From positions 4,803,501 to 4,867,500 of the forward strand of contig NZ_CP023317.1 of assembly GCF_009497655.1 (NCBI RefSeq): a DNA stretch of 64,000 bases, in the 5' to 3' direction. Numbering within the stretch: position 1 is the first letter of the stretch; every line of letters begins with the position of its first letter. Origin of the DNA: Priestia megaterium. Its GTDB lineage: Bacteria > Bacillota > Bacilli > Bacillales > Bacillaceae_H. Positions 31,269-45,191 of the stretch are shown piece by piece. The translations under genes and the position numbers were made by a program. A model generated the notes under the pieces. The model searched no databases. It was given only the letters and a program-made list of their open reading frames with translations, and was not told the DNA's origin.

Positions 31269-31670
31269 TTATGCTTGGCCGCCGCTTCCATGGACTTGCT
31301 GGCGGTGAAGCTGCACAACTTGCTTCCACGTATCGCGGAACTCTGTTACATATTGTTCGGCTTCATCCAAGCTCTCTATGTCATTTTTTGTGTTCGCTTC
31401 AATTAAACACTGGTTGATATAGTCATACATAGTCATCATAGACTTAGCAACTTGCACGTTTGTATCAAGGGTAATCATTAATTCTTGAATAATATTTTGT
31501 GCTTTTAACAAATTCGTATTTTTTAGCTCAATATTTTTTTCCTGTATGCCTGTTCGTGCAAGTTTGATAAATTTCAAACACCCGTTATACAGCATAAGCG
31601 TTAACTCTCCTGGAGAGGCAGTCTGAACAGCTCCCTGCTGATACGCTTGATATGGATTATTTGCTGCCAT
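31269..31670 (-). CDS. fliS: flagellin export chaperone FliS
   Basis: FliS binds flagellin and prevents premature polymerisation before export. The 133-residue helical protein has the signature NPYQAYQQGAVQTASPGELTLMLYNGCLKFI and later NIIQELMITLD and YDYINQCLIEAN. It lies between fliD and fliT. A second, more divergent FliS is encoded near 50.6 kb. Confidence 0.95.
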   Translation of the reverse strand: MAANNPYQAYQQGAVQTASPGELTLMLYNGCLKFIKLARTGIQEKNIELKNTNLLKAQNIIQELMITLDTNVQVAKSMMTMYDYINQCLIEANTKNDIESLDEAEQYVTEFRDTWKQVVQLHRQQVHGSGGQA

Positions 31671-31686
31671 AAACGTTCACTCCTTC

Positions 31687-33492
31687 TTAACTAAAATATT
31701 GCGATAACTGCGCGCTTTGAGCATTTGCATTTTGAATGGCTTTCTCCATTGCTGTAAACTGACGATAATACCGGTCCTCTACTTGTGTGAGCCTGCTTTC
31801 AAAACTAGTAATTTGGCTGTTTACGCTTTTTAAATTCCGCCCAAGCAAAAATTGTTCACTTGTCCATGTTGAACGGCCAGCGCGCTGCTCAACTTTGGAT
31901 ACGGTTTGAGTAATCGTATCTCGTAAACGTCGTACAATCCCTTTTTCACTTGTTGTACTTCCACTTTTCATAAATAAATCCATAACAGACTGCGGGTCTT
32001 TTTCAATTGCTTCTTTTAATTTAGTCCCGTCACCTTCAATCACTAGCTTGCCTCGATCACTATAGTTTGCGCTAGTTGAAATACCGATGTCCGTTAGCTG
32101 TGAAAATGCTCCGCTCACTCCTGATACAGAGGCATACCAGTTAGAACGCATTTGATTCAGCCCGCTTGATAAAATTGTGTCTCCTTTTAACAAACCGCTT
32201 TTTGCTTTATCATCCCACTGCTCAGCTTGTTTGTCCGTTAGCTTTTCTCTTTCTTGATCCGTCAAAGGCTGATAGTTTCGGTCTCTTTCTTCGGTAATCT
32301 TTCCATTAATTTTCTCAATCAGCTCATTATATTTAGTCACAAAATCTTTGATTGTATCAAATACTTTTTGCGTATCATTGCTTACGTTAACGCGCACATC
32401 TCCTGTGAAATTATTTTGAAGGGTATAGGTAACGCCTCCCGTTGTAAATGTATTAGACTTACGAGTTGTTTCTAGACCGTTTAGCGTAAATTTTGCGTCT
32501 GTTCCTTTCGCATTACCGGCAAGCTGTAGAAACCCCGTTGTCAAAAATGCTCCTGAAAAAACCATATTGGATCCATCTGGACTGTCAACAGAAGATAAAT
32601 TCCCCGTATCTTTACGAGTCATGACAACTTTATTCGTTCCTTCATCAAAAAAAGCTGAAATGCCTACTTTTGAATTACTGATTTGTGTGAGAAGGGTGTT
32701 TAATGAGGTGGAACCATCAAATTCAAATGGCGTACTTCCCCCATCTTGAATATTTCCTGTTGCTTTGCCTGTACTATCATAAGTTGTCATAGAAAAGTTC
32801 AGCACATTTTGCTGATACGAGAACGCTTCAATTGTACTGCCGCTTGTTAATGTGGTACCAAACGTCATTTCACCTGTGTCTTCGTTAATAAATACTTCAT
32901 TAGAATTTATAGTTCCCGCCGCTGTTCCTATTCTTACGGTATACGCTTTACTTGTACCATCCGTGGTAACGGATATAGAGTTTAAAGTGCCTGTGTTCTG
33001 ATTTACAGCAGAAACAGCACCTTTAGCTAATTTCACTGTACTAGTATCCGCACTTAATGTTATGGCGGCTTGTTCCACTGTTTTCTCAGTCCAAACACTT
33101 GAATCCATCGACCCGCGTTGAGACCACAAGCTTTTCGTCGGATCCATACTAGAATCAATACTGGTGCTAATAGTCTGAGCAGCAGTCGCCATTGTCACGT
33201 TTGAAAGGGTATAAGACGCATTTCCTGCTGAGGAAGTAGCTGCTGCTTTTACTTTTGTTTCATCTGCTGAAGATACCGTTTTGGACGAATAAGAAGACTG
33301 CAAGGTCATATTAAAAGCAAGATTATTAAAGTCTGATAACAGCAAATTCATAGAGCGATAATCGTCGCGCTGCCACTCTAACGTTTGCTTTTGTTTTTTC
33401 ATCTTATCAATAGGCATTCGTTCAGCCTTCATTAAATCACTGACGATTTGATCAATATCCATCCCACTTGCTAATCCACTTACTCTTACCAC
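31687..33492 (-). CDS. fliD: flagellar filament cap protein FliD
   Basis: FliD (HAP2) caps the filament and promotes flagellin assembly. The 601-residue protein has the FliD N-domain (RVSGLASGMDIDQIVSDLMKAER) and C-domain (SGLNQMRSNWYASVSGV ... TDIGISTSANYSDRGKLVI), with coiled coils at both ends. It is longer than B. subtilis FliD (about 500), the extra length being in the variable Ser/Thr-rich middle. It heads fliD-fliS-fliT behind a candidate sigma D promoter. flaG, normally just upstream, is absent. Confidence 0.94.
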   Translation of the reverse strand: MVRVSGLASGMDIDQIVSDLMKAERMPIDKMKKQKQTLEWQRDDYRSMNLLLSDFNNLAFNMTLQSSYSSKTVSSADETKVKAAATSSAGNASYTLSNVTMATAAQTISTSIDSSMDPTKSLWSQRGSMDSSVWTEKTVEQAAITLSADTSTVKLAKGAVSAVNQNTGTLNSISVTTDGTSKAYTVRIGTAAGTINSNEVFINEDTGEMTFGTTLTSGSTIEAFSYQQNVLNFSMTTYDSTGKATGNIQDGGSTPFEFDGSTSLNTLLTQISNSKVGISAFFDEGTNKVVMTRKDTGNLSSVDSPDGSNMVFSGAFLTTGFLQLAGNAKGTDAKFTLNGLETTRKSNTFTTGGVTYTLQNNFTGDVRVNVSNDTQKVFDTIKDFVTKYNELIEKINGKITEERDRNYQPLTDQEREKLTDKQAEQWDDKAKSGLLKGDTILSSGLNQMRSNWYASVSGVSGAFSQLTDIGISTSANYSDRGKLVIEGDGTKLKEAIEKDPQSVMDLFMKSGSTTSEKGIVRRLRDTITQTVSKVEQRAGRSTWTSEQFLLGRNLKSVNSQITSFESRLTQVEDRYYRQFTAMEKAIQNANAQSAQLSQYFS

Positions 33493-33605
33493 TTACCATC
33501 ACCACCGTTTTTTTATTCATCTATCCATCAACTGCTAGCCATAAAATATAAGTATATTTTTTCGAATCTCCCTATTCGTTCATAGGTTCACCACTTCTCT
33601 ATTTT

Positions 33606-33632
33606 GTATCGGTAAAACGAACATTTTTTTCA
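33606..33632 (-). promoter_or_regulatory. candidate sigma D promoter of fliD-fliS-fliT
   Basis: TGAA-N15-ACCGATAC on the minus strand resembles TAAA-N15-GCCGATAT. It lies about 115 bases before fliD. Because flaG is missing, fliD needs its own promoter. Confidence 0.6.
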
Positions 33633-33654
33633 TAGGTCAAAGGGTGCAAGATAG

Positions 33655-33692
33655 AAAAAGCTCACTTATTTTTTTACAATAAGTGAGCTTTT
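33655..33692 (-). terminator. terminator of the DUF2140-like gene
   Basis: AAAAGCTCACTTATT and AATAAGTGAGCTTTT form a 15-bp stem; the minus strand continues with T-rich sequence. Confidence 0.88.
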
Positions 33693-33694
33693 TA

Positions 33695-34375
33695 TTATTG
33701 GCCAAACAAGTTCAGTTTCTGGGATAAATTCCTTTGAATATCCTTAGGAATAAGGTATGGTGCTAGATTTATAATATCTCGTAACGAATCAATGGTTACA
33801 GAGGCAGATAAATTTATATATTCATCCGTTGTATCTGCTTGCTCAAACGAAATGGAATCTGGCAAATTATTGAGCAGAGTAATTTCATTCATTTCTTTAT
33901 CGACCGTGACATCAGAAGACTCGTTAATATTTAAGCGATCCCATACAAGAGACCTCGGAATCGGCATTCTTCCTAAATGCACACTATTCACCTTCAAAAC
34001 AAGCTTTCCATTCTCGGCATTTGGTGTTACATCAACTACAAACTGTGATTCCATAAAAGATACTACATGTTTATTAATATAAAATTTTATATGTTCCGGA
34101 AGCAACTCCGCTTCTGCTCCCTCAACCGTTTCATCATTTTCATAAAGGTAGCTGCGCAAATAATCGTTAACATCGCTCTCGCTCAATCGGTAGCCTAAAA
34201 TAGGGGAGCCTCCGTTCAGTTCTAGCGACGTCGCACGAGCGGACTTTTCTTGTGCTAGTGAAGATAATGAAGCAGTCTGATCAAGCTTTTCAACATTTCT
34301 AACTGGACTAACGAAAAAATACAACCCAAATAAAAGGATAATAAATAGAAAAATAACAGCTATAAATTTTCTCAA
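33695..34375 (-). CDS. DUF2140/YpmS-like membrane-anchored protein
   Basis: The protein has one N-terminal membrane helix (FIAVIFLFIILLFGLYFFVSPV) and an extracytoplasmic region resembling YpmS proteins (NGKLVLKVNSVHLGRMPIP, SASVTIDSLRDI). I choose a TTG start (LRKFIAV) nine bases after AAAGGG, giving 226 residues; a GTG two codons earlier is too close to the Shine-Dalgarno. Function unknown. It has its own terminator and stands at the left edge of the block that replaces hag-flaG. The family assignment is tentative. Confidence 0.6.
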   Translation of the reverse strand: MRKFIAVIFLFIILLFGLYFFVSPVRNVEKLDQTASLSSLAQEKSARATSLELNGGSPILGYRLSESDVNDYLRSYLYENDETVEGAEAELLPEHIKFYINKHVVSFMESQFVVDVTPNAENGKLVLKVNSVHLGRMPIPRSLVWDRLNINESSDVTVDKEMNEITLLNNLPDSISFEQADTTDEYINLSASVTIDSLRDIINLAPYLIPKDIQRNLSQKLNLFGQ

Positions 34376-34452
34376 ACACACGCACCCTTTCAAACATTCT
34401 TCTTGGAACATAATACCGATTTATCTTTTATCATACAAGATAAATAAGATGT

Positions 34453-34580
34453 ATGTCGAAAACTTGTATAAAATGTACGTATATACTCGACATCCCAAAT
34501 GGCGAATAAGTCTATAGTGAATAAAACGAGTCTTGTTCGACTTAAAATGCGTCGATTTTAGTAACTTAAAGTCGATTTTT
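34453..34580 (+). promoter_or_regulatory. clustered GTCGA/TCGAC sites upstream of the gabP promoter (candidate UAS)
   Basis: Five GTCGA or TCGAC pentamers occur in about 130 bases: ATGTCGA and TCGACAT as inverted arms 34 bases apart (34453-59, 34487-93), TCGAC (34537-41), and GTCGATTTTA/GTCGATTTTT as direct repeats exactly 20 bases apart (34551, 34571). They lie 20-145 bases upstream of a sigma54 promoter, where an enhancer-binding protein would bind. Confidence 0.55.
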
Positions 34581-34596
34581 ATAGGAATTTGATAAT

Positions 34597-34612
34597 TGGC
34601 ACACTTCTTGCT
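34597..34612 (+). promoter_or_regulatory. sigma54 (SigL) -24/-12 promoter of gabP
   Basis: TGGCAC-N5-TTGCT is an exact match to the -24/-12 consensus TGGCAC-N5-TTGCW, with the invariant GG and GC 10 bases apart. The start codon follows about 95 bases later. Confidence 0.9.
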
Positions 34613-34706
34613 TATTATAAAGGTAAGGGGAGGAATTTCTATTTATATTTTCAGAATTTACTTTATTTTCTAATAGTCTTTCGATAATTTTAAAGGAGTG
34701 AATACG

Positions 34707-36104
34707 ATGGGAAACAAAACAGAATCACACGGAAAGTTAAAGCAACGTCACGTTTCCATGATTTCCATTGCAGGTATTATCGGGGCCGGCTTGTTTGTAG
34801 GAAGCGGATCCGTTATTAACGCAACAGGCCCAGCAGCAGTAGTTTCATATGCAGCAGCCGGACTGTTAGTCGTTCTATTAATGCGTATGCTCGGTGAAAT
34901 GGCTATGGTAAATCCAGATAAAGGTTCATTCGCGACATATGCTCAGCAAGGAATTGGCCCGTGGGCAGGTTATGCTGTTGGATGGCTTTACTGGTTTTTC
35001 TGGCTAATTGTAATTGCAATCGAAGCCACTGCAGGAGGAGCAATTGTTCATGAATGGCTCCCTTCCGTACCAATTTGGCTTTTAAGCTTAATCTTAACCT
35101 TTGCATTAACCTTAACAAACTTATTCTCTGTCAAATCATTTGGAGAATTTGAATATTGGTTTGCAATGATTAAAATTGTGGCAATCGTTGCTTTTATGGG
35201 AATCGGTTTAGCTATTATTTTCGGATTAATCCCAGGTACATCTTCACCTGGTTTAGCTAATTTAACGGGGCACGGAGGCTTTATGCCAAAAGGTACGAAC
35301 TCTATCTTTTTAGGAGTTATTACCGTTATTTTCTCTTATTTTGGAGCTGAAATTGCGGCTATTGCAGCTAGTGAATCAGAAAATCCAGCAAAAGCTATTA
35401 CAACTGCTATTCGCAGTGTCGTATGGCGAATTTTAATTTTCTATATTGGTTCAGTTGCTATTTTAGTAACTCTTTTACCTTGGAACTCAGCTGATTTACT
35501 AAAAAGTCCGTACGTAACAATGTTAGAAATGGTCAACATTCCAGCAGCTGCACAAATTATGAATTTAGTCGTATTAGTATCCGTTTTGTCTTGCTTAAAC
35601 TCTGCTTTATATACGAACTCGCGAATGATTTTATCATTAGCTCAAAAAGGACAAGCTCCTCGTGCTTTAGCAAAGGTAAGCAAATCAGGCGTGCCGGCAA
35701 GAGCCGTATGGATTAGCACAGCTGCCGCATATGTATGTGCTATCTTTAGCTTCGTTTCGCCGGATAAACTCTTTTTATTCTTAGTTAATGCATCAGGAGC
35801 CATTGCTCTTATTGTGTACTTAGCTATCGCTATTTCGCATTTACGCCTGCGTAAGAAAATGATTCAAGCCAACCAGCCAATTAAAGGAATGAAAATGTGG
35901 TTGTTCCCGTATTTAACATACGTAACAATTGCTGTTATTACCGTGATCTTCTTATCAATGGCATTTATTGATTCGATGCGCTCACAGTTTTTCTTAACTC
36001 TTGGATTAACCGCTGTTGTTCTTCTTTCATACTCATTCATCAAAAAAACAAATAACAAGCGACCTGACGATCAATTTTCCGAGTCAGAAAATATTGCAAA
36101 ATAA
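34707..36104 (+). CDS. gabP: GABA permease (APC family)
   Basis: GabP imports 4-aminobutyrate and some related amino acids by proton symport. The 465-residue protein has twelve hydrophobic segments and the AAT-family motifs SMISIAGIIGAGLFVGSG, SVKSFGEFEYWFAMIKI and AAQIMNLVVLVSVLSCLNSALY, very close to what I recall of B. subtilis GabP. The start is the ATG for MGNKTES, after AAAGGAGTGAATACG. Unlike an ordinary sigma A gene, it sits behind a perfect sigma54 promoter, so it should need SigL and an enhancer-binding protein encoded elsewhere. RocE is the alternative identity. Confidence 0.85.
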   Translation: MGNKTESHGKLKQRHVSMISIAGIIGAGLFVGSGSVINATGPAAVVSYAAAGLLVVLLMRMLGEMAMVNPDKGSFATYAQQGIGPWAGYAVGWLYWFFWLIVIAIEATAGGAIVHEWLPSVPIWLLSLILTFALTLTNLFSVKSFGEFEYWFAMIKIVAIVAFMGIGLAIIFGLIPGTSSPGLANLTGHGGFMPKGTNSIFLGVITVIFSYFGAEIAAIAASESENPAKAITTAIRSVVWRILIFYIGSVAILVTLLPWNSADLLKSPYVTMLEMVNIPAAAQIMNLVVLVSVLSCLNSALYTNSRMILSLAQKGQAPRALAKVSKSGVPARAVWISTAAAYVCAIFSFVSPDKLFLFLVNASGAIALIVYLAIAISHLRLRKKMIQANQPIKGMKMWLFPYLTYVTIAVITVIFLSMAFIDSMRSQFFLTLGLTAVVLLSYSFIKKTNNKRPDDQFSESENIAK

Positions 36105-36130
36105 AAAAAGCCGCATCTGCGGCTTTTTTT
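36103..36130. terminator. bidirectional terminator gabP / choline-type symporter
   Basis: AAAAAAAGCCGC-ATCT-GCGGCTTTTTTT, between convergent genes. Confidence 0.9.
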
Positions 36131-36143
36131 ATTTTGTTTTTGA

Positions 36144-37856
36144 TTATTTCTCAACCGATATGTCACGATGAAGGTTTCGAAGCGGCTGAGGAGGGCAAAT
36201 ACGTCGCGTTGCGTAAGAAACAATAAAAATAGTTAACAACCCGCCTACCATCGCAAATGTACGAAATGGAAACATGACCACCCCGTCTTCTATCATCGGA
36301 TACGGAAGCAGCGCTTTTAAATGAAGCAGCGGTTCCCCTCCACCGATTCGAAGAACAAGAGACACAATGAATCCAGCCAAAGATCCGTACCAGTTTGCTC
36401 CTTTAAAGAACAAAGCGCAAACCAATTGTGGAAAAAGAATACAATACACTAGGTCCCCTGATAAATACCATAAGGAGTAGACACTCTCAGAGTTTAAAGC
36501 AATTAAAGTTGCTCCAGTTCCAATGATAATGATAGAACGTTTAATAACTTTATCTAACTGCGCCTGTGTCGCATTTGGTTTTACAATCGGACGATACACG
36601 TTCCAAGCTGCCATTCCCGAAGCTGAAAGTAACGAAGCCGCTACTGCAGCCATGACGGCAGCAGCTAGTCCTCCAAGCGCAATCGCTCCTACTAAATCAG
36701 GCGTTAGATATTTAAATACGTATGTTAAAATCATAGACGCGCTCTCAGGGCTTGACGCTCCAAATGAAGACCAGTCCGCACTGTAACCAATCATTCCTAT
36801 TAAAGTTGGAGGCAAGGCCGCTAGAGCGCAAAAAATGCCGGCTGTAATAGATAGCCACATTGCTGCTTTTTCATTTTTAGCAGATAACACGCGCTGAAAA
36901 TAAATCTGCCATGGAATACCACCAAAAATAAGTAAAAATGTGCTATCCCACCATTGCCAATATGTATTTCCCCATTTTGGATCTTCCCAGCCTTTTAATG
37001 GAGGAAATAAATGAAGAGAACCAGTCATACCTTCTGAATAAGTAGAAAAAACGGCTCCCACCCCTCCCGTATTCGAAAATGCAAAAGGAAGCACCAGAAA
37101 TAATCCTAAAAACATAATAGAAAGCTGTAAGATATCGGTATGTGCTACTGCCCACAAGCCGCCAATCACGGTGTATGCAATGGCAATAAGTGCGGAAAGA
37201 ATGATGGAAATTGAAAAACTGAGGCCTAAAATCACACCGAATGTTGTTCCTAAAGCAGTTAAGATAGCTGCGCTCCAAAACAGCTCTCCTAATATAGCTG
37301 GAAAATAAAGAACCGTAGCCATTTTCTTACCGAAACGAGATTCTAGAGGATCGAGCATTGTCATAAACTCAAACCTTCTCATCTTTCTAGCAAAAAAGAT
37401 ACCGCCTAAAATTAAGCTGATTGAATAACACCATGGCGCTTGCGTCCAAGTCAGTCCTGAGGAATAAACAGTTTCGGCCGTTCCAGCAATATACCCTCCA
37501 CCTACCCAAGTAGCGGTCATTGTGAACATTGAAATCCATAGCGGCATAGATCTTCCCGCAACAAGCATATCATCTGATTTTCCTTTTTTACTTGCAGCAG
37601 CTCGAGCACCAATAAAGTAAATAACACCATACATAATGAACATTAAAATGAGGCCTGGCCAATAGAGATCTGGATTATAGAGAGAATAGATAAATGCGAC
37701 AACCATAAAGATGAAAAATCCTATAATAGTTGTCCATAAGGGGGTTAGTAGACGGTTGTTTCTGTTTGATTTCCCTGAAAAGTCAGAAGTCTCATTCGAC
37801 TTTTCAGGCCTGGCTTGTTGTGTGTCTGAACGAAATGGCTTTTTAGCATTTTGCAT
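36144..37856 (-). CDS. sodium:solute symporter resembling the high-affinity choline transporter CHT1 (SLC5A7)
   Basis: The 570-residue protein has about 13 membrane segments and a hydrophilic N-terminal extension of ~35 residues. Several stretches match, from memory, the animal choline transporter CHT1: FTMTATWVGGGYIAGTAE, YSISLILGGIFFA, TMLDPLESRFGKKM, FWSAAILTALG and GGIPWQIYFQRVLSAKN. The neighbours gbsA, gbsB and gbsR convert choline to glycine betaine, so choline import is the likely job. Most Bacillus choline uptake runs through ABC (Opu) or BCCT carriers. It is transcribed away from gbsAB. Sodium-coupled choline uptake is inference from similarity plus context. Confidence 0.8.
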   Translation of the reverse strand: MQNAKKPFRSDTQQARPEKSNETSDFSGKSNRNNRLLTPLWTTIIGFFIFMVVAFIYSLYNPDLYWPGLILMFIMYGVIYFIGARAAASKKGKSDDMLVAGRSMPLWISMFTMTATWVGGGYIAGTAETVYSSGLTWTQAPWCYSISLILGGIFFARKMRRFEFMTMLDPLESRFGKKMATVLYFPAILGELFWSAAILTALGTTFGVILGLSFSISIILSALIAIAYTVIGGLWAVAHTDILQLSIMFLGLFLVLPFAFSNTGGVGAVFSTYSEGMTGSLHLFPPLKGWEDPKWGNTYWQWWDSTFLLIFGGIPWQIYFQRVLSAKNEKAAMWLSITAGIFCALAALPPTLIGMIGYSADWSSFGASSPESASMILTYVFKYLTPDLVGAIALGGLAAAVMAAVAASLLSASGMAAWNVYRPIVKPNATQAQLDKVIKRSIIIIGTGATLIALNSESVYSLWYLSGDLVYCILFPQLVCALFFKGANWYGSLAGFIVSLVLRIGGGEPLLHLKALLPYPMIEDGVVMFPFRTFAMVGGLLTIFIVSYATRRICPPQPLRNLHRDISVEK

Positions 37857-38400
37857 CGTCTCACATCCTTTAAATTGATAAAGAAATCTAAAGACATAAC
37901 TGTCCTCTATTCCTTTTTCCTACCAGCATACAATTAAACCTAAAAATAGATTTTTTTAGAATAAACTATAAATAGTTGGATTATAAATACCAATACGAAG
38001 GGGAGAAATTACGTTTATATAATTATATTAAAATAATTTAAATTGACTTATTTTATTATTCAGCTAAAAATTCATAATTATTTTCATCTTCTCTCTAAAC
38101 TCCTTTCTTAATTTCCACATTCAAAATCCTTTGTTTCTCAAGGTTTGTATGCAAGCAGATATCGTACTATGGTTAATATATCTGAATGTTTAGGATATTG
38201 TCAAAAAAGTTTAAGGGTTTTCATATAAAAAAAGAATAATATTCTCATAGCTCATACATAAAAAAACCTTTTGTATCAAGGGACATAGCAATCAGTATTT
38301 TTTAATTGCTTTTTGTTAAATTTTTTCTTAATATCCGAATAATCAGCTCTTAATAGAGAAGAAAATCAATTTAAATTCAGAACATTTAAAGTTTTTGAAT

Positions 38401-38430
38401 TTGACTAAATTAAATGGCCGATGCTATAAT
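38401..38430 (+). promoter_or_regulatory. sigma A promoter of gbsAB
   Basis: TTGACT, an 18-base spacer and a perfect TATAAT. The transcription start would fall about 55 bases before the gbsA start, just ahead of a palindrome. Confidence 0.8.
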
Positions 38431-38446
38431 TCAAATTGTTAAGAAC

Positions 38447-38464
38447 GTTAAATATAAATTTAAC
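38447..38464. promoter_or_regulatory. candidate GbsR operator in the gbsAB leader
   Basis: GTTAAAT-ATAA-ATTTAAC is a perfect 7-bp inverted repeat about 10 bases past the predicted transcription start. A related inverted repeat flanks the gbsR -10 region. A repressor here would block elongation. Assignment to GbsR is inference. Confidence 0.5.
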
Positions 38465-38492
38465 AAATTCTATTATTTGGAGGTCGATGCTA

Positions 38493-39977
38493 TTGGAACA
38501 AACACTTATGCTTGAGAAAATGCACATAAACGGCCAATGGGTTGAAGCACGCAGCGGCGAGAAAAGAGAAATTGTAAACCCCTTTAATCAAGAGGTTATC
38601 GCTGTCGTTACAGAAGGAAATCGTGCTGATGCCATAGAAGCCATTGAATCAGCTAGAAAAGCTTTTGATGCAGGTGAATGGTCTAAATTTACAGCGGCCG
38701 AAAGAGGTTCTTTGTTATTTAAAGTAGCGGAAGAAATTCGCAATGATCGCGAGGAACTAGCAAAGCTTGAAACCTTAAATACCGGAAAAACCCTCGTTGA
38801 AAGCCTAGCAGACATGGATGGAATTGCTGATGTCTTTCAATACTATGCTGGATTAGCAGATAAAGATGGCGGACAGATGATTGAGTCACCTAATCCTGAT
38901 TCTGTTAGCCGCGTTGTCCGTGAGCCTGTAGGCGTGTGCAGCCAAATTACTCCTTGGAATTACCCGTTATTGCAAGCCTCTTGGAAATTGGCTCCCGCAC
39001 TTGCTGCTGGGAACACAATTGTTATTAAACCAAGCGAAATCACCCCTTTAACAACTATTCATATGATGAAAATTTTTGAAAGAGTTGGCTTTCCAGCAGG
39101 CGTCATTAACATTGTACTCGGTCCAGGTGCGACCGTTGGACAAGAAATGGCAGAGAGTCACTTAGTAGATTTAGTTTCCTTTACAGGTGGCGGAGTATCT
39201 GGACGTAAAGTCATGCAGGCTGCCGCAGGCAACTTTAAAAAAATTGCTCTTGAACTCGGAGGGAAAAATCCGAATATCGTCTTTGCTGACGCTGACTTTG
39301 ACACTGCGGTTGACTATGCATTAAATGCGGTCTTCTTTCATGCTGGTCAAGTTTGTTCAGCTGGTGCGAGATTACTCGTTCAAGATGATATTCACGATAA
39401 ATTTGTTTCAGCAGTTATTGAACAAGCCAAAAAAATTAAGCTAGGGGACGGCATGGACGAAGCCACTCAAATGGGACCCGTTATCTCAAAAGAACATCTA
39501 GCTAAAGTGGAACATTATATTGAGCTAGGGAAACAAGAAGGTGCTTCTCTTGTTTTAGGAGGCAAGCGTCCAACTCAGGATTCTTTACAAAAAGGCTTAT
39601 TTATCGAACCAACTATTTTTACAAACTGTCATGGAGACATGAAAGTTGTCCAAGAAGAGTCATTTGGTCCGATTATGACAATTGAGCGCTTCAGTACTGA
39701 AGAAGAAGCAGTCGCACTTGCTAACGATACGATCTATGGATTAGCTGGAGCTGTTTGGACAAGTGATATGAACCGAGCTGAACGTGTAGTGAAAGCACTC
39801 CGTATGGGAACAACTTGGATTAACGATTATCATCCCTACTTCCCGCAGGCTCCTTGGGGAGGTTATAAGCAATCTGGGATTGGAAGAGAGCTTAGCCATA
39901 TCGGTCTAGAAGAGTATACGGAAATTAAACATATTTATACCAATACAAATCCACAGCCAATGCGCTGGTTTCAATAA
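38493..39977 (+). CDS. gbsA: betaine aldehyde dehydrogenase GbsA
   Basis: GbsA oxidises betaine aldehyde to glycine betaine with NAD, the second step of osmoprotectant synthesis from choline. The protein has the ALDH motifs QITPWNYPLLQASWKLAPALAAGN, LELGGKNPNIVF (catalytic Glu) and HAGQVCSAGARL (catalytic Cys), and matches B. subtilis GbsA closely as far as I recall. I choose the TTG start (LEQTLMLEK) nine bases after GGAGG; an ATG two codons earlier is only three bases from it. This gives 494 residues. gbsB follows by 21 bases. Confidence 0.94.
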   Translation: MEQTLMLEKMHINGQWVEARSGEKREIVNPFNQEVIAVVTEGNRADAIEAIESARKAFDAGEWSKFTAAERGSLLFKVAEEIRNDREELAKLETLNTGKTLVESLADMDGIADVFQYYAGLADKDGGQMIESPNPDSVSRVVREPVGVCSQITPWNYPLLQASWKLAPALAAGNTIVIKPSEITPLTTIHMMKIFERVGFPAGVINIVLGPGATVGQEMAESHLVDLVSFTGGGVSGRKVMQAAAGNFKKIALELGGKNPNIVFADADFDTAVDYALNAVFFHAGQVCSAGARLLVQDDIHDKFVSAVIEQAKKIKLGDGMDEATQMGPVISKEHLAKVEHYIELGKQEGASLVLGGKRPTQDSLQKGLFIEPTIFTNCHGDMKVVQEESFGPIMTIERFSTEEEAVALANDTIYGLAGAVWTSDMNRAERVVKALRMGTTWINDYHPYFPQAPWGGYKQSGIGRELSHIGLEEYTEIKHIYTNTNPQPMRWFQ

Positions 39978-39998
39978 AAATTAAGGGGGAATTTAAAG

Positions 39999-41201
39999 AT
40001 GTTTATGCGATTTGAAAGAATGGAACGTTTAAAAAGTTTTGAGATGCCAACGGTTGTAAAACATGGAATTGGTGCTGTAAAACATACTGGAGAGGAAGTA
40101 AAAAACCTAGGTGTGTCTAAAGTTTTATTAGTAACAGATCCTGGTGTAAAAAAAGTAGGTTTAGCAGATCCCGTAATCGCTAGTTTAAAAGAAGCGGACG
40201 TAGACGTTATTCTATTTGACCAAGTAGAAGCCAACCCTTCTATTCACGTAGTAGCAGACGGCACAAAAATGTACAAGGAAAATGGATGCAACGGACTAGT
40301 AGCTGTTGGAGGCGGAAGTTCAATGGATACGGCAAAAGCTATTGGTGTAGAAGTAGCTCATAATGCTCCCGTCTTAGATTATGAAGCAGCTGAAGGAAAA
40401 AAACCTTTAACAAAACGTATCCCTCCTTTAACAACAATCCCTACAACTGCGGGTACAGGAAGCGAAGTCACACAATGGGCCGTCATTACGGATCCTGTTC
40501 GTGAGTTTAAGTTTAATACAGGTGGACCTTTAATTGCTGCTCACTTAACAATTATTGATCCAGAACTGCACGTATCTATGCCTTCACATATTACGGCCGG
40601 TACAGGAATTGACGCATTAGCTCATGCAATTGAGTGTTATACATGCCACTTTGCGCAACCAATGACAGACTCTGTTGCTTTATTGGCTATTGAGTACGTT
40701 GGAAAATACTTACGACGTGCAGTTGCAAATGGACAGGATATCGAAGCACGCTATGGAATGGCGCATGCAGCTATGCTTGCTGGCCTTTCATATGGAAGTG
40801 AATCTGCAGGAGCAGCTCACGCGATGGCTCAAACATTAGGAGGCATTTATCCAATTGCCCATGGCCCTTGCGTAGCAGCAATGCTAGGTCCTGTAATGGA
40901 GTATAACTGGATGGGTGAGCCTGAGAAATTTGCGCGCATAGCTCAAGCTCTAGGGGTTAATACACATGAACTAACACTTGAAGAAGCAGCTCAAGCAGCT
41001 GTTCGTGAAGTATATCAATTAGTTAAAGATGTACAAATCCCTTCTTTAGAAGAACAAGGTGTTCCAAAAGAAGCGGTTTCTCGCTTAGCGCAAGAAGCAT
41101 TTAATGATCCTCAAACAGTTGGGAATCCTCGTGATTTAACTGTAAAAAGTTACGAATGGATTTATAACCGCTGTTTTGAAGCTACACCATTAACCGTATA
41201 A
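39999..41201 (+). CDS. gbsB: choline dehydrogenase, type III iron-containing ADH, GbsB
   Basis: GbsB oxidises choline to betaine aldehyde using NAD. The 400-residue protein has the iron-ADH fold: nucleotide loop VGGGSSMDTAKAIG, TIPTTAGTGSEVT, and the metal ligands in TAGTGIDALAHAIECYTCHFAQP and AHAMAQTLGGIYPIAHGPCVA. The ATG follows AAGGGGGAATTTAAAG. This is the alcohol-dehydrogenase type used by bacilli, not the FAD-dependent BetA. It shares a terminator with gbsR. Confidence 0.94.
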   Translation: MFMRFERMERLKSFEMPTVVKHGIGAVKHTGEEVKNLGVSKVLLVTDPGVKKVGLADPVIASLKEADVDVILFDQVEANPSIHVVADGTKMYKENGCNGLVAVGGGSSMDTAKAIGVEVAHNAPVLDYEAAEGKKPLTKRIPPLTTIPTTAGTGSEVTQWAVITDPVREFKFNTGGPLIAAHLTIIDPELHVSMPSHITAGTGIDALAHAIECYTCHFAQPMTDSVALLAIEYVGKYLRRAVANGQDIEARYGMAHAAMLAGLSYGSESAGAAHAMAQTLGGIYPIAHGPCVAAMLGPVMEYNWMGEPEKFARIAQALGVNTHELTLEEAAQAAVREVYQLVKDVQIPSLEEQGVPKEAVSRLAQEAFNDPQTVGNPRDLTVKSYEWIYNRCFEATPLTV

Positions 41202-41209
41202 AAATGATA

Positions 41210-41238
41210 AAAGGCTGTTGATTTTTCAACAGCCTTTT
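41210..41238. terminator. bidirectional terminator gbsB / gbsR
   Basis: AAAGGCTGTTGA and TCAACAGCCTTT form a 12-bp stem with a four-base loop, followed by Ts on the plus strand, between convergent genes. Confidence 0.9.
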
Positions 41239-41243
41239 TTATG

Positions 41244-41798
41244 TTACTCTTTCGCTAATTCTTCATTTAAAATATCGATGATTCTTCGGTCGTCAAAAAC
41301 TTTCACTACTTTTTTCAAGAAATGATAATAATGTTTGGACTCTATAATCTGCGCTAAATTACGCTTTGCTTTTACTGCGATCTCCTCAGGTACATCTTCA
41401 TCATTTAAAAGAATCTGCAGCTTGTTTTCCGCTTCTTCGATTGCCTCTAAATTAACTGAAATTTCTCTTTGCCACTTCTTACAGAAAAATGAAAAAAAGG
41501 ACTTAGAAAAATCTTTTTCTGCTTCATATAAGTCTTTTCGAACACCTTTTTTCCACACTTTGTGGACCATGTCAATATTTTGAAGTGAACGAATAGATGT
41601 ACTCATCGTTGGTTTACTCATACCCAATTCTTCACTCATTTGATCTAATGTAACAGGTTCATCCATAAAATAAAGCATGCCATACAGCCTTCCTACTGAA
41701 GGTGTAACACCATATAAATCCATCGTATCAGCTAAAGCACTGACAACCACATCTTCGGCTTCTTTTAATAAATCATGATACTCTTGAACATCACTCAT
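41244..41798 (-). CDS. gbsR: choline-sensing repressor GbsR (MarR-like)
   Basis: GbsR represses gbsAB (and opuB in B. subtilis) until choline binds. The 184-residue protein has a winged-helix DNA-binding region (SVGRLYGMLYFMDEPVTLDQMSEELGMSKPTMSTSIRSLQ, residues ~35-75) typical of the GbsR subfamily, and a helical C-terminal part with several aromatic residues. It is convergent with gbsAB here. An inverted repeat bracketing its own -10 suggests autoregulation. Confidence 0.93.
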   Translation of the reverse strand: MSDVQEYHDLLKEAEDVVVSALADTMDLYGVTPSVGRLYGMLYFMDEPVTLDQMSEELGMSKPTMSTSIRSLQNIDMVHKVWKKGVRKDLYEAEKDFSKSFFSFFCKKWQREISVNLEAIEEAENKLQILLNDEDVPEEIAVKAKRNLAQIIESKHYYHFLKKVVKVFDDRRIIDILNEELAKE

Positions 41799-41817
41799 TT
41801 ACTCTTCTCCTCTTTTG

Positions 41818-41851
41818 TTAAATTTATTTGAATTATACTTAATAAATTTAA
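41818..41851. promoter_or_regulatory. inverted repeat over the gbsR promoter
   Basis: TTAAATTTATT and AATAAATTTAA are perfect 11-bp arms 12 bases apart. Between them, on the minus strand, is TATAAT (41832-41837), the likely -10 of gbsR. The TTAAAT half-site also occurs in the gbsA leader palindrome. Confidence 0.55.
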
Positions 41852-41901
41852 TGATACACGATAAAAAGGAAAAAAACAGAAATTCAGTTCAATTTTTTGA
41901 T

Positions 41902-41934
41902 AAAAAAGAAGCCTTCTCTTAAAGAGAAAGGCTT
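41902..41934 (-). terminator. terminator of fliW-csrA
   Basis: AAGCCTTTCTCT and its partner AAGAGAAGGCTT form a stem followed on the minus strand by CTTTTTTATC. Confidence 0.85.
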
Positions 41935-42024
41935 AAGACATAGTGGGGAATACTATATGTTTATCTTTCCCGATTTAGATATTATTTATACGGTATATTT
42001 TTAATTATTTTCAATCTGATTGTT

Positions 42025-42255
42025 TTATTTCTTTTTCGGTAATTGTTTCAGCATATCAATAGCATGTAATGTAATTTGAGAAGCACTTTTATTTTCATTA
42101 CGTATTTCTTCATAAATCTCTTGTCTATGAATATCTACAGACTTTGGAGCTTGAATTCCTAACTTTACTTGATCACCATTAACTGCAAGGACGGTCACTT
42201 CAATTTCATCACCTATTTTGATTGTTTCATATAACTTTCGTGTTAAAACAAGCAT
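42025..42255 (-). CDS. csrA: translational regulator CsrA
   Basis: CsrA binds GGA motifs in mRNA leaders; in B. subtilis it represses hag translation and is held in check by FliW. The 76-residue protein begins MLVLTRKLYETIKIGDEIEVTVL and carries the binding edge DIHRQEIYEEI. It follows fliW by 24 bases. In B. subtilis hag is next; here it is not. Confidence 0.96.
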   Translation of the reverse strand: MLVLTRKLYETIKIGDEIEVTVLAVNGDQVKLGIQAPKSVDIHRQEIYEEIRNENKSASQITLHAIDMLKQLPKKK

Positions 42256-42279
42256 GGACTCACTCCTTATCTATTCCTC

Positions 42280-42702
42280 TTACTCAAATAACCTGTGCTT
42301 CGTTTCGTAAGCTGTATTCATTAAAATCACTTGCTTAGCAAGCTGTTGCTTTGTATTAATAATAACAGGAGCCTGCAAATTAGCCGTTATCTTTTCCACA
42401 GAATCTGACATCGTAAGCAATACGTAAACAGCTGCATCTTCCGCTTGTTGTAATTGAAGCTTTTCGATTTCCTGAGGTTCTAGTTGAAAATCATAATCTA
42501 AAAAAAACTGAAATGGATCCGTGATAATAAAAGCTAATTCTTTGGTTTGAGTAGACTGCAGAACTTGGAAAGCTTCGGCTTCCGGAAGTGGTAAAATAAC
42601 AAATTCAGTTTCTTCCAAAAAACCTGGAATCCCTTGATTAAATGTCAGTGTTTGCTGATTATCTATTTCTATATCTCCATGATAGCTTGTGAAAATTTTC
42701 AT
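42280..42702 (-). CDS. fliW: flagellar assembly factor FliW
   Basis: FliW binds free flagellin or CsrA, coupling flagellin supply to its translation. The 140-residue protein has the family pattern GIPGFLEETEFVILPL and ITDPFQFFLDYDFQL. It lies between flgL and csrA. The yviE gene found between flgL and fliW in B. subtilis is absent. Confidence 0.95.
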   Translation of the reverse strand: MKIFTSYHGDIEIDNQQTLTFNQGIPGFLEETEFVILPLPEAEAFQVLQSTQTKELAFIITDPFQFFLDYDFQLEPQEIEKLQLQQAEDAAVYVLLTMSDSVEKITANLQAPVIINTKQQLAKQVILMNTAYETKHRLFE

Positions 42703-42750
42703 CTCATCACACCTTTGCTAATTAATTTTTTCTTGTTATCTTTTTTCATT

Positions 42751-42785
42751 ATAAAAAAGCTCCTTCTGTGTAGAAGGAGCTTTTT
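42751..42785 (-). terminator. terminator of the flgM-flgN-flgK-flgL transcript
   Basis: AAAAAGCTCCTTCT and AGAAGGAGCTTTTT form a 14-bp stem with a four-base loop and a T-run on the minus strand, touching the flgL stop. fliW-csrA is thus probably expressed from a separate start or by read-through. Confidence 0.9.
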
Positions 42786-43665
42786 AACGCAAGAAATCTA
42801 GCAGCGTAGGCTGAATAATTTGAGCCCCTACTCCCAAAGCAGCACGATGCACGCTTTCTTGTACGGTTAAATCCGTAATGACTTTTTCAATATCTGCATC
42901 TTCATTATTTGAAAGCATCTTAGTAGCCGTAATTTCCTGTGAATCAAGGCGGTTTTCGATCAGCTCAAGCCGATTGCTCCTTGCTCCCAATTCAGATCGC
43001 TCCGCTAATAGCGTAGACAGCTGCGTGTCTACCTGTGTAGAAAGATCTTTTAGTGAGTTTACATCGTTTTGTTCAAAAGCTGTTTGAACATTGTTCATTA
43101 AGTCGAATGCACCTTGTCCAAAGATGTTTTCAGGATGAATATTGACTCTCAGCTGGATACCTTTTGATACCTCAACCGAAAAAGGATCCAGATTAATATT
43201 CGATTCTATCATACCGCTTGCATTCTCACTAATCGGCGGTGCTCCCACATTTACACCGTTAAAGATATAGTTTCCTGCCACCTGCGTATTGCCGACTTGC
43301 ATATAATCCAGCTTTAACTGTTCAATTTCACGTGCAATCGCTTGTCGGTCATCACTTTCATTCGTACCGTTTAACCCTTGCACGACCAGCTCTTTAGTGC
43401 GCTGAAGAATGGAATTGACTTGTTCAAGTCCTGATTCTGAACTATCAAACCAAGACTGAGCTTCTGTTAAATTACGTTTATATTGATTTACTTCAGAAAG
43501 ATTAGACCGATACGCCATTCCTTTCGTAGCGACTACCGGGTCATCGGAAGGACGAGTAATTTTCTTTCCCGTTGATAATTGGTTTTGAAGGGTTTCCAGC
43601 TTATTATAGCTATTGCTAATCTGTTTTAACGAATTAGCCGCTAACATTCCTTGTGTGACACGCAT
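42784..43665 (-). CDS. flgL: flagellar hook-filament junction protein FlgL
   Basis: FlgL (HAP3) joins the hook-associated ring to the filament. The 293-residue protein has the flagellin-like N-terminus (RVTQGMLAANSLKQISNSYNKL, then STGKKITRPSDDP) and C-terminal helix (TDLTVQESVHRAALGVGAQIIQPTLLDFL). It follows flgK by two bases. Confidence 0.96.
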   Translation of the reverse strand: MRVTQGMLAANSLKQISNSYNKLETLQNQLSTGKKITRPSDDPVVATKGMAYRSNLSEVNQYKRNLTEAQSWFDSSESGLEQVNSILQRTKELVVQGLNGTNESDDRQAIAREIEQLKLDYMQVGNTQVAGNYIFNGVNVGAPPISENASGMIESNINLDPFSVEVSKGIQLRVNIHPENIFGQGAFDLMNNVQTAFEQNDVNSLKDLSTQVDTQLSTLLAERSELGARSNRLELIENRLDSQEITATKMLSNNEDADIEKVITDLTVQESVHRAALGVGAQIIQPTLLDFLR

Positions 43666-43667
43666 CT

Positions 43668-45191
43668 TTACCTTCCTCCAGTTCCAAGACCGTTTACAAT
43701 TTTATCAAGCATTTCATCAATCATCGTCACCATACGGGCACTAGCGTTATATGCATGCTGAAACTGAATCATATTGGTCATCTCTTCATCCAATGAAACT
43801 GCACTGGTAGACTGGCGCCTTTGCTCCACAGCTCCTTGGAGAGTTTCTGAATTACTTTTTAAGCGGTTGGCTTGTTGGGCATCTACTGACATTTGGCCAA
43901 TGACAGATTGATAAAATCCATCTAATGAAACAGCTCCGTTTCCGGAATTAATAAGCACCTTTTGACGAAATTGAGACAACAGCTGAGCATTTTGTCCATC
44001 TCCTTTGCGGCCAGTTCCATCATCTTCAGAAGAGGCCGAAGAAGCAGCAGCGATATTGTTTGTGTTTTGTTTGATTTTATCAGCAATAACAATTCCAGTT
44101 GCAGCTCCTTCTTTCTGAGAAATCTCATTAAAAAAGGACACACCATTCTCACCATCTAGCGTGACACCTTGTTCGTGCTTATCATTAAACCAGTTCACAA
44201 ATTCATATGCCATTTCATCTAAATCATCAATCATTGAAGCGTAAACACCAGTTCTATTACCACTATTATCTATATATCCAGAAGCCTCAATTAACCCTTT
44301 AAGTTTTCCTTGAGGAAATGACTCAGGGTTCCGTATCTCATCCCCTATATGAATGCCCGTCACATAGGAATCTTGATTTGTTGTCAAACTGATGGCATTT
44401 ATTTGATGAGTTTTCCCATCTAAAAGAGTAATAGGTCCTTGAGACGTTTGAAGCTGAACCGTTACCACTCCTTCTGACGTTGCAGAAGCGTTCCCGCTGC
44501 TTTTTGTATACTCTAAAGAAACCGGCATAAATTTAGAAATCTCATCTAGCAGCCGATCTCTTTCATCATACAAATCATTAGGTAAATAGCCATTTGGTTC
44601 TACGTTTTGTATTTGTTGGTTCACATTATTTATTTGCTCTAGCAACGAATTTACTTGTGTTACGGCTACGTCACGCTCGTTTTGTAAATCACCTTGAATC
44701 GTTTTTAAAGAAGTAGATAAATAAGAGAAAGTATCGCCTACTGCTTCAGCTCGTTCAATCATAACAGACCTGGCTCCTGCTTCTGAAGGGTGTGAAGCTA
44801 CATCTTGAATGGCCTCAAAGAATTGATTAAAAACAGCTGAAAGTCCATCTTCAGTAGGTTCATTCATAATTTCCTCCATTTTTTCAAGAGCACCAGCGCG
44901 TGCATCCCAATACCCCACTTTAATGGTTTCATCTCGATACTGGGTATCTAAAAATGTATCACGTATTCGCTCTACCGTGCTGGCTTCTACTCCCATTCCT
45001 ATTTGACCCGCAGTCCCAGTCTGATTCATCCCTGGGGCCGGATAAGCTGGGAACGTTTCTAAACTTACTCGCTGACGCGTATAGCCCGGCGTATTTGCAT
45101 TAGATACGTTATGGCCAATCGTGTAAAGAGCCGCTTGTTGGGCGTCCATTCCTCGTTTAGCCACCTGCAAACCATGAAATGTTGAACTCAT
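43668..45191 (-). CDS. flgK: flagellar hook-associated protein FlgK
   Basis: FlgK (HAP1) forms the first ring at the hook-filament junction. The 507-residue protein has the rod/hook signature AALYTIGHNVSNANTPGYTRQ and the C-terminal motif SAVSLDEEMTNMIQFQHAYNASARMV. It follows flgN by 18 bases. The length is normal. Confidence 0.96.
   Translation of the reverse strand: MSSTFHGLQVAKRGMDAQQAALYTIGHNVSNANTPGYTRQRVSLETFPAYPAPGMNQTGTAGQIGMGVEASTVERIRDTFLDTQYRDETIKVGYWDARAGALEKMEEIMNEPTEDGLSAVFNQFFEAIQDVASHPSEAGARSVMIERAEAVGDTFSYLSTSLKTIQGDLQNERDVAVTQVNSLLEQINNVNQQIQNVEPNGYLPNDLYDERDRLLDEISKFMPVSLEYTKSSGNASATSEGVVTVQLQTSQGPITLLDGKTHQINAISLTTNQDSYVTGIHIGDEIRNPESFPQGKLKGLIEASGYIDNSGNRTGVYASMIDDLDEMAYEFVNWFNDKHEQGVTLDGENGVSFFNEISQKEGAATGIVIADKIKQNTNNIAAASSASSEDDGTGRKGDGQNAQLLSQFRQKVLINSGNGAVSLDGFYQSVIGQMSVDAQQANRLKSNSETLQGAVEQRRQSTSAVSLDEEMTNMIQFQHAYNASARMVTMIDEMLDKIVNGLGTGGR

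Follow-up and report, generated by a model that had tools for sequence, protein, structure and literature searches.

The soil bacterium Priestia megaterium carries, within the 64,000-nucleotide stretch analysed here (positions 4,803,501 to 4,867,500 of contig NZ_CP023317.1; hereafter the window), a gene for an SSS-family transporter of the high-affinity choline transporter (CHT, SLC5A7) type. It is adjoined by gbsA, gbsB and a gene for a CudC-type regulator, each of which scored above the curated cut-off of its profile (listed below as score against cut-off). An earlier note on this DNA had described the CHT gene as divergent from gbsA-gbsB, with gbsR at the far end, a layout that is borne out by the positions of the open reading frames (ORFs). 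The genes of the locus, together with the CHT codons discussed most in what follows, are:

36144..37856, minus strand: CHT (SLC5A7)-type SSS transporter, ORF of 570 amino acids
36636..36650, minus strand: codons 403-407 of the CHT gene (GCT GCA GTA GCG GCT), counted from the start codon at 37856; Na+-coupled relatives have Ser-Ser-x-Asp-Ser here
38487..39977, plus strand: gbsA, betaine-aldehyde dehydrogenase, with a probable revised start at ATG 38487 (mechanical ORF 38436-39977); TIGR01804, 709 against 669 bits
39999..41201, plus strand: gbsB, type-III choline dehydrogenase; NF053866, 729 against 550 bits
41244..41798, minus strand: GbsR/CudC MarR-type regulator; NF047500, 225 against 218 bits

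The closest characterised relative of known structure is sfCHT from Salimicrobium flavidum (PDB 9rws, 9rwt), a bacterial Na+-dependent choline transporter characterised in 2026, whose choline uptake in liposomes showed an overshoot in NaCl and none in KCl or N-methyl-D-glucamine (NMDG) (PMC13220886). In a phmmer search against PDB sequences, the E-values of the window CHT protein were 2e-223 for sfCHT (9rws) and 2.4e-119 and 2.9e-119 for human CHT1 (8j74 and 9bfi); vSGLT, which represents the next family among solved structures only, followed at 1.4e-16. The identity to sfCHT is 61.8% over 524 residues, and that to human CHT1 is 47.8% over 473 aligned residues. The Pfam family PF00474 (SSF) was matched at 125.3 bits against a cut-off of 22.8, and the protein fell below the cut-off of NCBIfam TIGR00813 (156 vs 184). 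A PutP or PanF identity was rejected, as the scores of 80.6 vs 515.5 and 74.7 vs 328 bits lie far under the equivalog cut-offs; the profile check against proline and pantothenate carriers thus went the way the earlier note expected. Its claim of long stretches shared with the animal CHT also held up in the alignment, in which human CHT1 matches TMTATWVGGGYI in full and departs from SLILGGIFFA and from GGIPWQIYFQRVLS by one residue each. An AlphaFold2 model built with 29 sequences (mean predicted local distance difference test score, pLDDT, 78; predicted template modelling score, pTM, 0.80) returned nine human CHT1 structures at ranks 1-9 in Foldseek, followed by SGLTs; sfCHT was absent from the best 50 matches listed, from a structure library that ends in April 2026. 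About 66 residues precede the start of human CHT1, and the model has a helix at 39-60.

In human CHT1, choline is surrounded by the aromatic residues W62, Y67, Y91, W141, W254 and W406 (PMC11589582). All six are identical in the window protein by alignment (W117, Y122, Y144, W194, W316 and W463), so that the choline cation-pi residues, for which the earlier note had proposed a check, are all present. For the exit path, the equivalents of R47, Q259, R260 and S263 were reported to be required for uptake by sfCHT and CHT1 (PMC13220886), and all four are kept (R102, Q321, R322 and S325). In addition, the hemicholinium-3 (HC-3) contact E73 of human CHT1 corresponds to E128, and the VGGGY loop of the Cl- site is the same as in human CHT1 and sfCHT.

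The sodium sites differ. In human CHT1, the hydroxyls of S346 and S347 form the Na2 site with backbone oxygens, and the residues assigned to Na3 are D188, D349 and S350; S346A, S347A and D188A each singly abolish uptake (PMC11589582). In the window protein, S346 and S347 (Na2) and D349 and S350 (Na3) correspond to A403, A404, A406 and A407, leaving D188 (= D241) as the sole Na+ side-chain ligand of the five; D241 is invariant in the 29 aligned sequences. A sequencing error behind the Ala changes was ruled out, since four separate Ala codons are involved in the window and the same residues recur in 12 genomes.

With a match threshold of E<=1e-60, CHT matches were found in 39 of 397 genomes of the order sample, 19 of 398 of the class sample, one of 398 of the phylum sample (the own genome only) and five of 10 of the genus sample. 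The order and class samples, both of which include the own genome, were joined into a set of 57 CHT-matching genomes. At the positions in transmembrane helix 8 (TM8), 12 of these have A,A,x,A,A (Ala-type), 43 are of the S,S,x,D,S type (Ser-type), one has G,S,x,A,A, and in one (L130, genome G089) the gene is broken and the positions are unclear; no genome among the 57 has both the Ala and the Ser type. The 12 Ala-type genomes comprise seven family groups, form one lineage and keep the whole cage. Within the 43 Ser-type genomes, L077 reads S,S,x,D,A, and L129 is also a broken gene. The G,S,x,A,A protein (L065, genome G554, with L085 as its context locus) is a CHT relative beside gbsAB that additionally carries Y91F, W141C and S263A (human numbering), and this altered choline cage perhaps points to another substrate. 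Further scans round other Ala-type or near-Ala-type genomes (1/4, 2/39, 1/4, 2/14 and 12/42) yielded only genomes already found, suggesting that the distribution is patchy.

Eight of nine Ala-type rows (in which L007 and L064 stand for the same genome) and L065 have His at position 239, two residues ahead of D241; 35 Ser-type rows have Phe, Tyr or Leu there, and human CHT1 has Tyr (Y186). Among the SSS paralogues of the own genome, L002 and L003 keep the S-T pair, and L004 (G000:C1:1806841) and L005 (891850), aligned at a low identity of 23-25%, have V-G and A-V at the aligned Na2 positions. The Ser/Thr pair is thus not universal among the SSS proteins of this genome, and these alignments suggest that it may hold more sodium-free SSS carriers.

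A column test covered 36 Ser-type and seven Ala-type rows (near-copies, L062 and L065 left out). The Ser type has 222 conserved columns, and at 12 of these every one of the seven Ala-type rows has lost the conserved residue. Loss hit four of the five Na+ side-chain ligands versus eight of 217 other columns (Fisher p = 2.4e-5, a test that takes columns as independent although the changes are those of one lineage), and none of the six cage or four exit-path columns. In the tree, the eight Ala-type rows and L065 form one group (100/100), and the Ala-type rows without L065 are grouped at 94/92. When the 13 trait columns were dropped and L062 was added, the Ala/Ser split was still one change (91/100, 90% of bootstrap trees). 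The Ala state is most simply read as derived from the Ser state, because both human CHT1 and L066, which branches lowest among the bacterial rows, are Ser-type. However, the root is not firm, because the human branch is very long, and the L066 branch is placed only at 93/47.

Within Priestia, 52 to 67 synonymous versus two to five amino-acid codon changes separate other copies from the window gene, with a ratio of nonsynonymous to synonymous rates (dN/dS) of 0.011-0.023, and the CHT gene is under strong purifying selection. These values speak against a decaying gene, although the copy of P. aryabhattai B8W22 (G001; L006, L011) sits in two overlapping frames near codon 91-94, with 99.6% and 95.7% identity to the window protein in the two pieces; the gene is thus frameshifted or misassembled there. 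A CHT gene 99.1% identical to that of the window lies on a 410 kb plasmid of P. megaterium (NZ_CP140268.1:224365-226071). Elsewhere, two CHT genes are broken, one by seven in-frame stops (L130, G089) and the other by a frame change and a stop (L129, G048), and genome G264 has a further Ser-type copy cut by two contig ends (L131, L132) besides a whole copy (L127).

The association with betaine synthesis extends well beyond the window. Neighbourhoods reaching up to 7 kb to either side of CHT were taken from 40 of the 57 genomes, and a gbsA, gbsB or gbsR homologue was found near CHT in 39 of these loci (34 with gbsA, 36 with gbsR; L108 had none of them). In 22 of the 40, gbsR lies between gbsA and CHT in the same direction as CHT, whereas in the window it lies at the far end. 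The wider surroundings (31272-45191) hold a gene resembling a permease for gamma-aminobutyric acid (GABA), the CHT gene and the gbs genes, flanked by flagellar fliS-fliD and fliW-flgL-flgK, an arrangement that would fit insertion of the betaine locus into a cluster of flagellar genes. A search with Rfam over 34500-42300 gave no RNA element at gathering score. Four further features may bear on expression:

36096..36137, no strand assigned: hairpin resembling a bidirectional terminator, in the gap that separates the CHT gene from the convergent GABA-permease-like gene
38175..38204, minus strand: candidate SigA promoter of the CHT gene, TTGACA-18-TATATT, 11/12
38401..38430, plus strand: candidate SigA promoter of gbsAB, TTGACT-18-TATAAT with TG before the -10 (extended -10), 11/12, by consensus match only
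38447..38464, plus strand: candidate GbsR operator, a perfect A/T-rich palindrome with 7-bp arms and a 4-bp spacer, just downstream of the predicted gbsAB start site

Promoter-like matches in the region are no commoner than in shuffles (13 vs a mean of 17.1). Translation of gbsA probably begins later than the listed TTG 38436, which lies at the predicted transcription start; the in-frame ATG 38487, which is preceded by GGAGG, is preferred. The palindrome at 38447-38464 has the geometry of the B. subtilis GbsR operator, which is of the kind with 7-bp arms and a 4-bp spacer (PMC7396694), and it is the only exact match in the 64 kb, while loose matches (<=3 mismatches) occur at chance (12 vs 11.6 expected). 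An operator-like palindrome was also sought at the promoter of the window CHT gene, and none was found within 420 bases upstream of it. Upstream of CHT in Ser-type relatives, palindromes of the forms GTTAAATNNNNATTTAAC and GTTTAATNNNNATTAAAC occur with <=1 mismatch, the window type in three of 40 regions (L100, L102, L107) and a sister form in four of 40 (L103, L106, L109, L110); letter shuffles gave means of 0.01 and 0.03 regions for the two. These palindromes are a possible mark of a GbsR regulon.

Sequence, fold, cage residues and neighbourhood all point to a CHT-type choline importer in a betaine locus, and the window protein very probably imports choline. This part of the sodium:choline symporter proposed in the earlier note stands; its sodium coupling is weakened by the Ala residues that replace all four TM8 side-chain ligands of the two Na+ sites, in this protein as in its lineage. 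Provided that choline is imported, transport is likely to be Na+-independent. The favoured reading, which the evidence supports on balance, is thus a choline importer without Na+ coupling that would be driven by the membrane potential or by H+. In evolutionary terms, one bacterial lineage appears to have dismantled both sodium sites with the choline site untouched, which would make it a natural sodium-free CHT powered by the membrane potential or by D241/H239 protons. The carrier would take in choline, which GbsB and GbsA would oxidise to glycine betaine. As choline carries a positive charge of its own, a membrane potential that is negative inside could power its uptake, and oxidation would trap the choline inside. 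Alternatively, Na+ may be replaced by a proton on D241, the aspartate that is kept from Na3, perhaps together with H239, which is specific to the lineage. A precedent that favours Na+ independence is the SLC5 protein CbrA: it lacks the Ser340/Thr341 pair of PutP, Na+ does not stimulate it, and H+ is its probable driving ion (PMC7096432; PMC7918813).

Several points weigh against a sodium-free carrier. The Na+ modelled in inward-facing sfCHT involves A97, T98, V100 and Q226 (PMC13220886), all of which are kept in the window protein (A115, T116, V118 and Q244), as is D241, so that weak or altered Na+ binding is possible. PutP of S. aureus keeps its Na+ residues, yet shows no stimulation by NaCl (PMC7918813), suggesting that coupling is not settled by sequence alone. 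A CbrA-like replacement at Na2 by lysine was ruled out, since TM5 starts with VAHTDILQL and the CbrA-type lysine has no counterpart, which would leave either the charge of choline itself to drive transport or D241 to take a proton. The role of H239 is weakened by a mean pLDDT of 55 for the model block 231-240, so that its facing the site is modelled weakly, and by Gln at 239 in one Ala-type row (L036). To these is added the shared ancestry of the changes counted in the Fisher test.

The retained residues would fit an ordinary Na+/choline symporter like sfCHT. In it, TM1 backbone oxygens together with T116, Q244 and D241 would still bind Na+, and the switch to Ala would do no more than reduce affinity or change the stoichiometry. 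The conservation of all four ligands of the sfCHT structure, the invariance of D241 and the Na+ dependence of sfCHT, a Ser-type relative, speak for such a symporter. However, it is doubtful, given that S346A or S347A alone kills transport by human CHT1 (PMC11589582) and that Na2 substitutions were highly deleterious in every SSS transporter investigated (PMC7918813). The joint loss of four ligands across 12 genomes of seven families is likewise hard to square with an intact site.

A different way to dispense with sodium would be exchange, e.g., choline in and betaine or another quaternary amine out, or service as a low-activity choline sensor; both are unlikely. CaiT of the BCCT family is an exchanger, and Na+-free exchangers have arisen in that other LeuT-fold family, which lends exchange some plausibility, as do seven OpuAC-type binding-protein matches above cut-off in the own genome, since other uptake routes may exist. 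However, betaine export would defeat the purpose of the gbs pathway, R102, Q321, R322 and S325 are kept, the counterparts of which sfCHT and CHT1 need for uptake, and profile scans matched no extra domain in the window protein. That the substrate is some other small cation or zwitterion, with the gbs linkage reflecting general osmoprotection, is very unlikely: Y91F and W141C of L065 show that the pocket has drifted in this lineage, but the six cage residues and VGGGY of the window protein are identical to those of two proven choline transporters, the linked genes oxidise choline, and the regulator belongs to the choline-responsive GbsR/CudC family.

Part of this picture is already in print, namely the gene in a gbs locus, the guess of choline import and a bacterial CHT with Na+-dependent uptake. 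In 2018, the gbs clusters of B. megaterium and B. licheniformis were reported to contain an SSS gene, with choline import as a guess (PMC6207618); the B. megaterium gene is evidently the same gene and locus, to judge from the genus, and the passages concerned contain neither the CHT relationship nor an ion-site analysis. Expression of gbsA and gbsB of P. megaterium was reported to rise about 3-fold in high salt (PMC7053513). Identity of the window protein with GbsU of Halobacillus was excluded, as GbsU is an ABC-type binding protein. A literature search aimed at bacterial or Na+-free CHT, covering few subscription papers and no supplements, gave no paper on an Ala-type CHT among the matches listed. 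The main text of PMC13220886 makes no mention of S385, S386, D388, Na3, gbs or an operon; its alignment set names 'Bacillus aryabhattai', and the Ala substitution may be visible in that figure. The new part is the loss of sodium-site side chains, which runs against the earlier inference of a sodium-coupled carrier.

Among known systems, sfCHT has the same choline cage and exit path as the window protein, and in such relatives choline has been shown or modelled in a tryptophan cage with exit via Q/R gates (PMC13220886). One genome has a CHT that shares its tip in the tree (L042/L103, with both end branches at 0), and there the distance from the CHT gene to the start of gbsA is about 0.6 kb. In contrast, sfCHT has S385, S386, D388 and S389 where the window protein has Ala at all four. 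Human CHT1 (8j74, 9bfi and others) is alike in the cage, the VGGGY loop and the HC-3 contact, and differs at Na2 (Ser346/Ser347) and Na3 (Asp349/Ser350), which are Ala in the window protein, at Y186 (H239), and in lacking the N-terminal extension of about 66 residues. The SLC5 domain of Pseudomonas CbrA shares the fold, the Na2 side chains not being conserved, and its transport is unstimulated by Na+ (PMC7096432); however, CbrA takes histidine as substrate, is fused to a sensor kinase and fills Na2 with K196 (preprint PMC13022988), whereas the window protein has no such Lys. The gbs linkage offers a physiological setting, betaine synthesis, for bacterial CHT proteins, the role of which was called unclear in PMC13220886, a paper that also describes the parts played by Na+ and Cl- in CHT transport as unresolved. 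An Ala-type sister lineage with the same pocket and neighbourhood would separate the ion's jobs in binding energy and in conformational control in matched natural proteins. If the favoured reading is true, this lineage is a natural experiment in which an SLC5 symporter changed its coupling ion without the lysine of CbrA.

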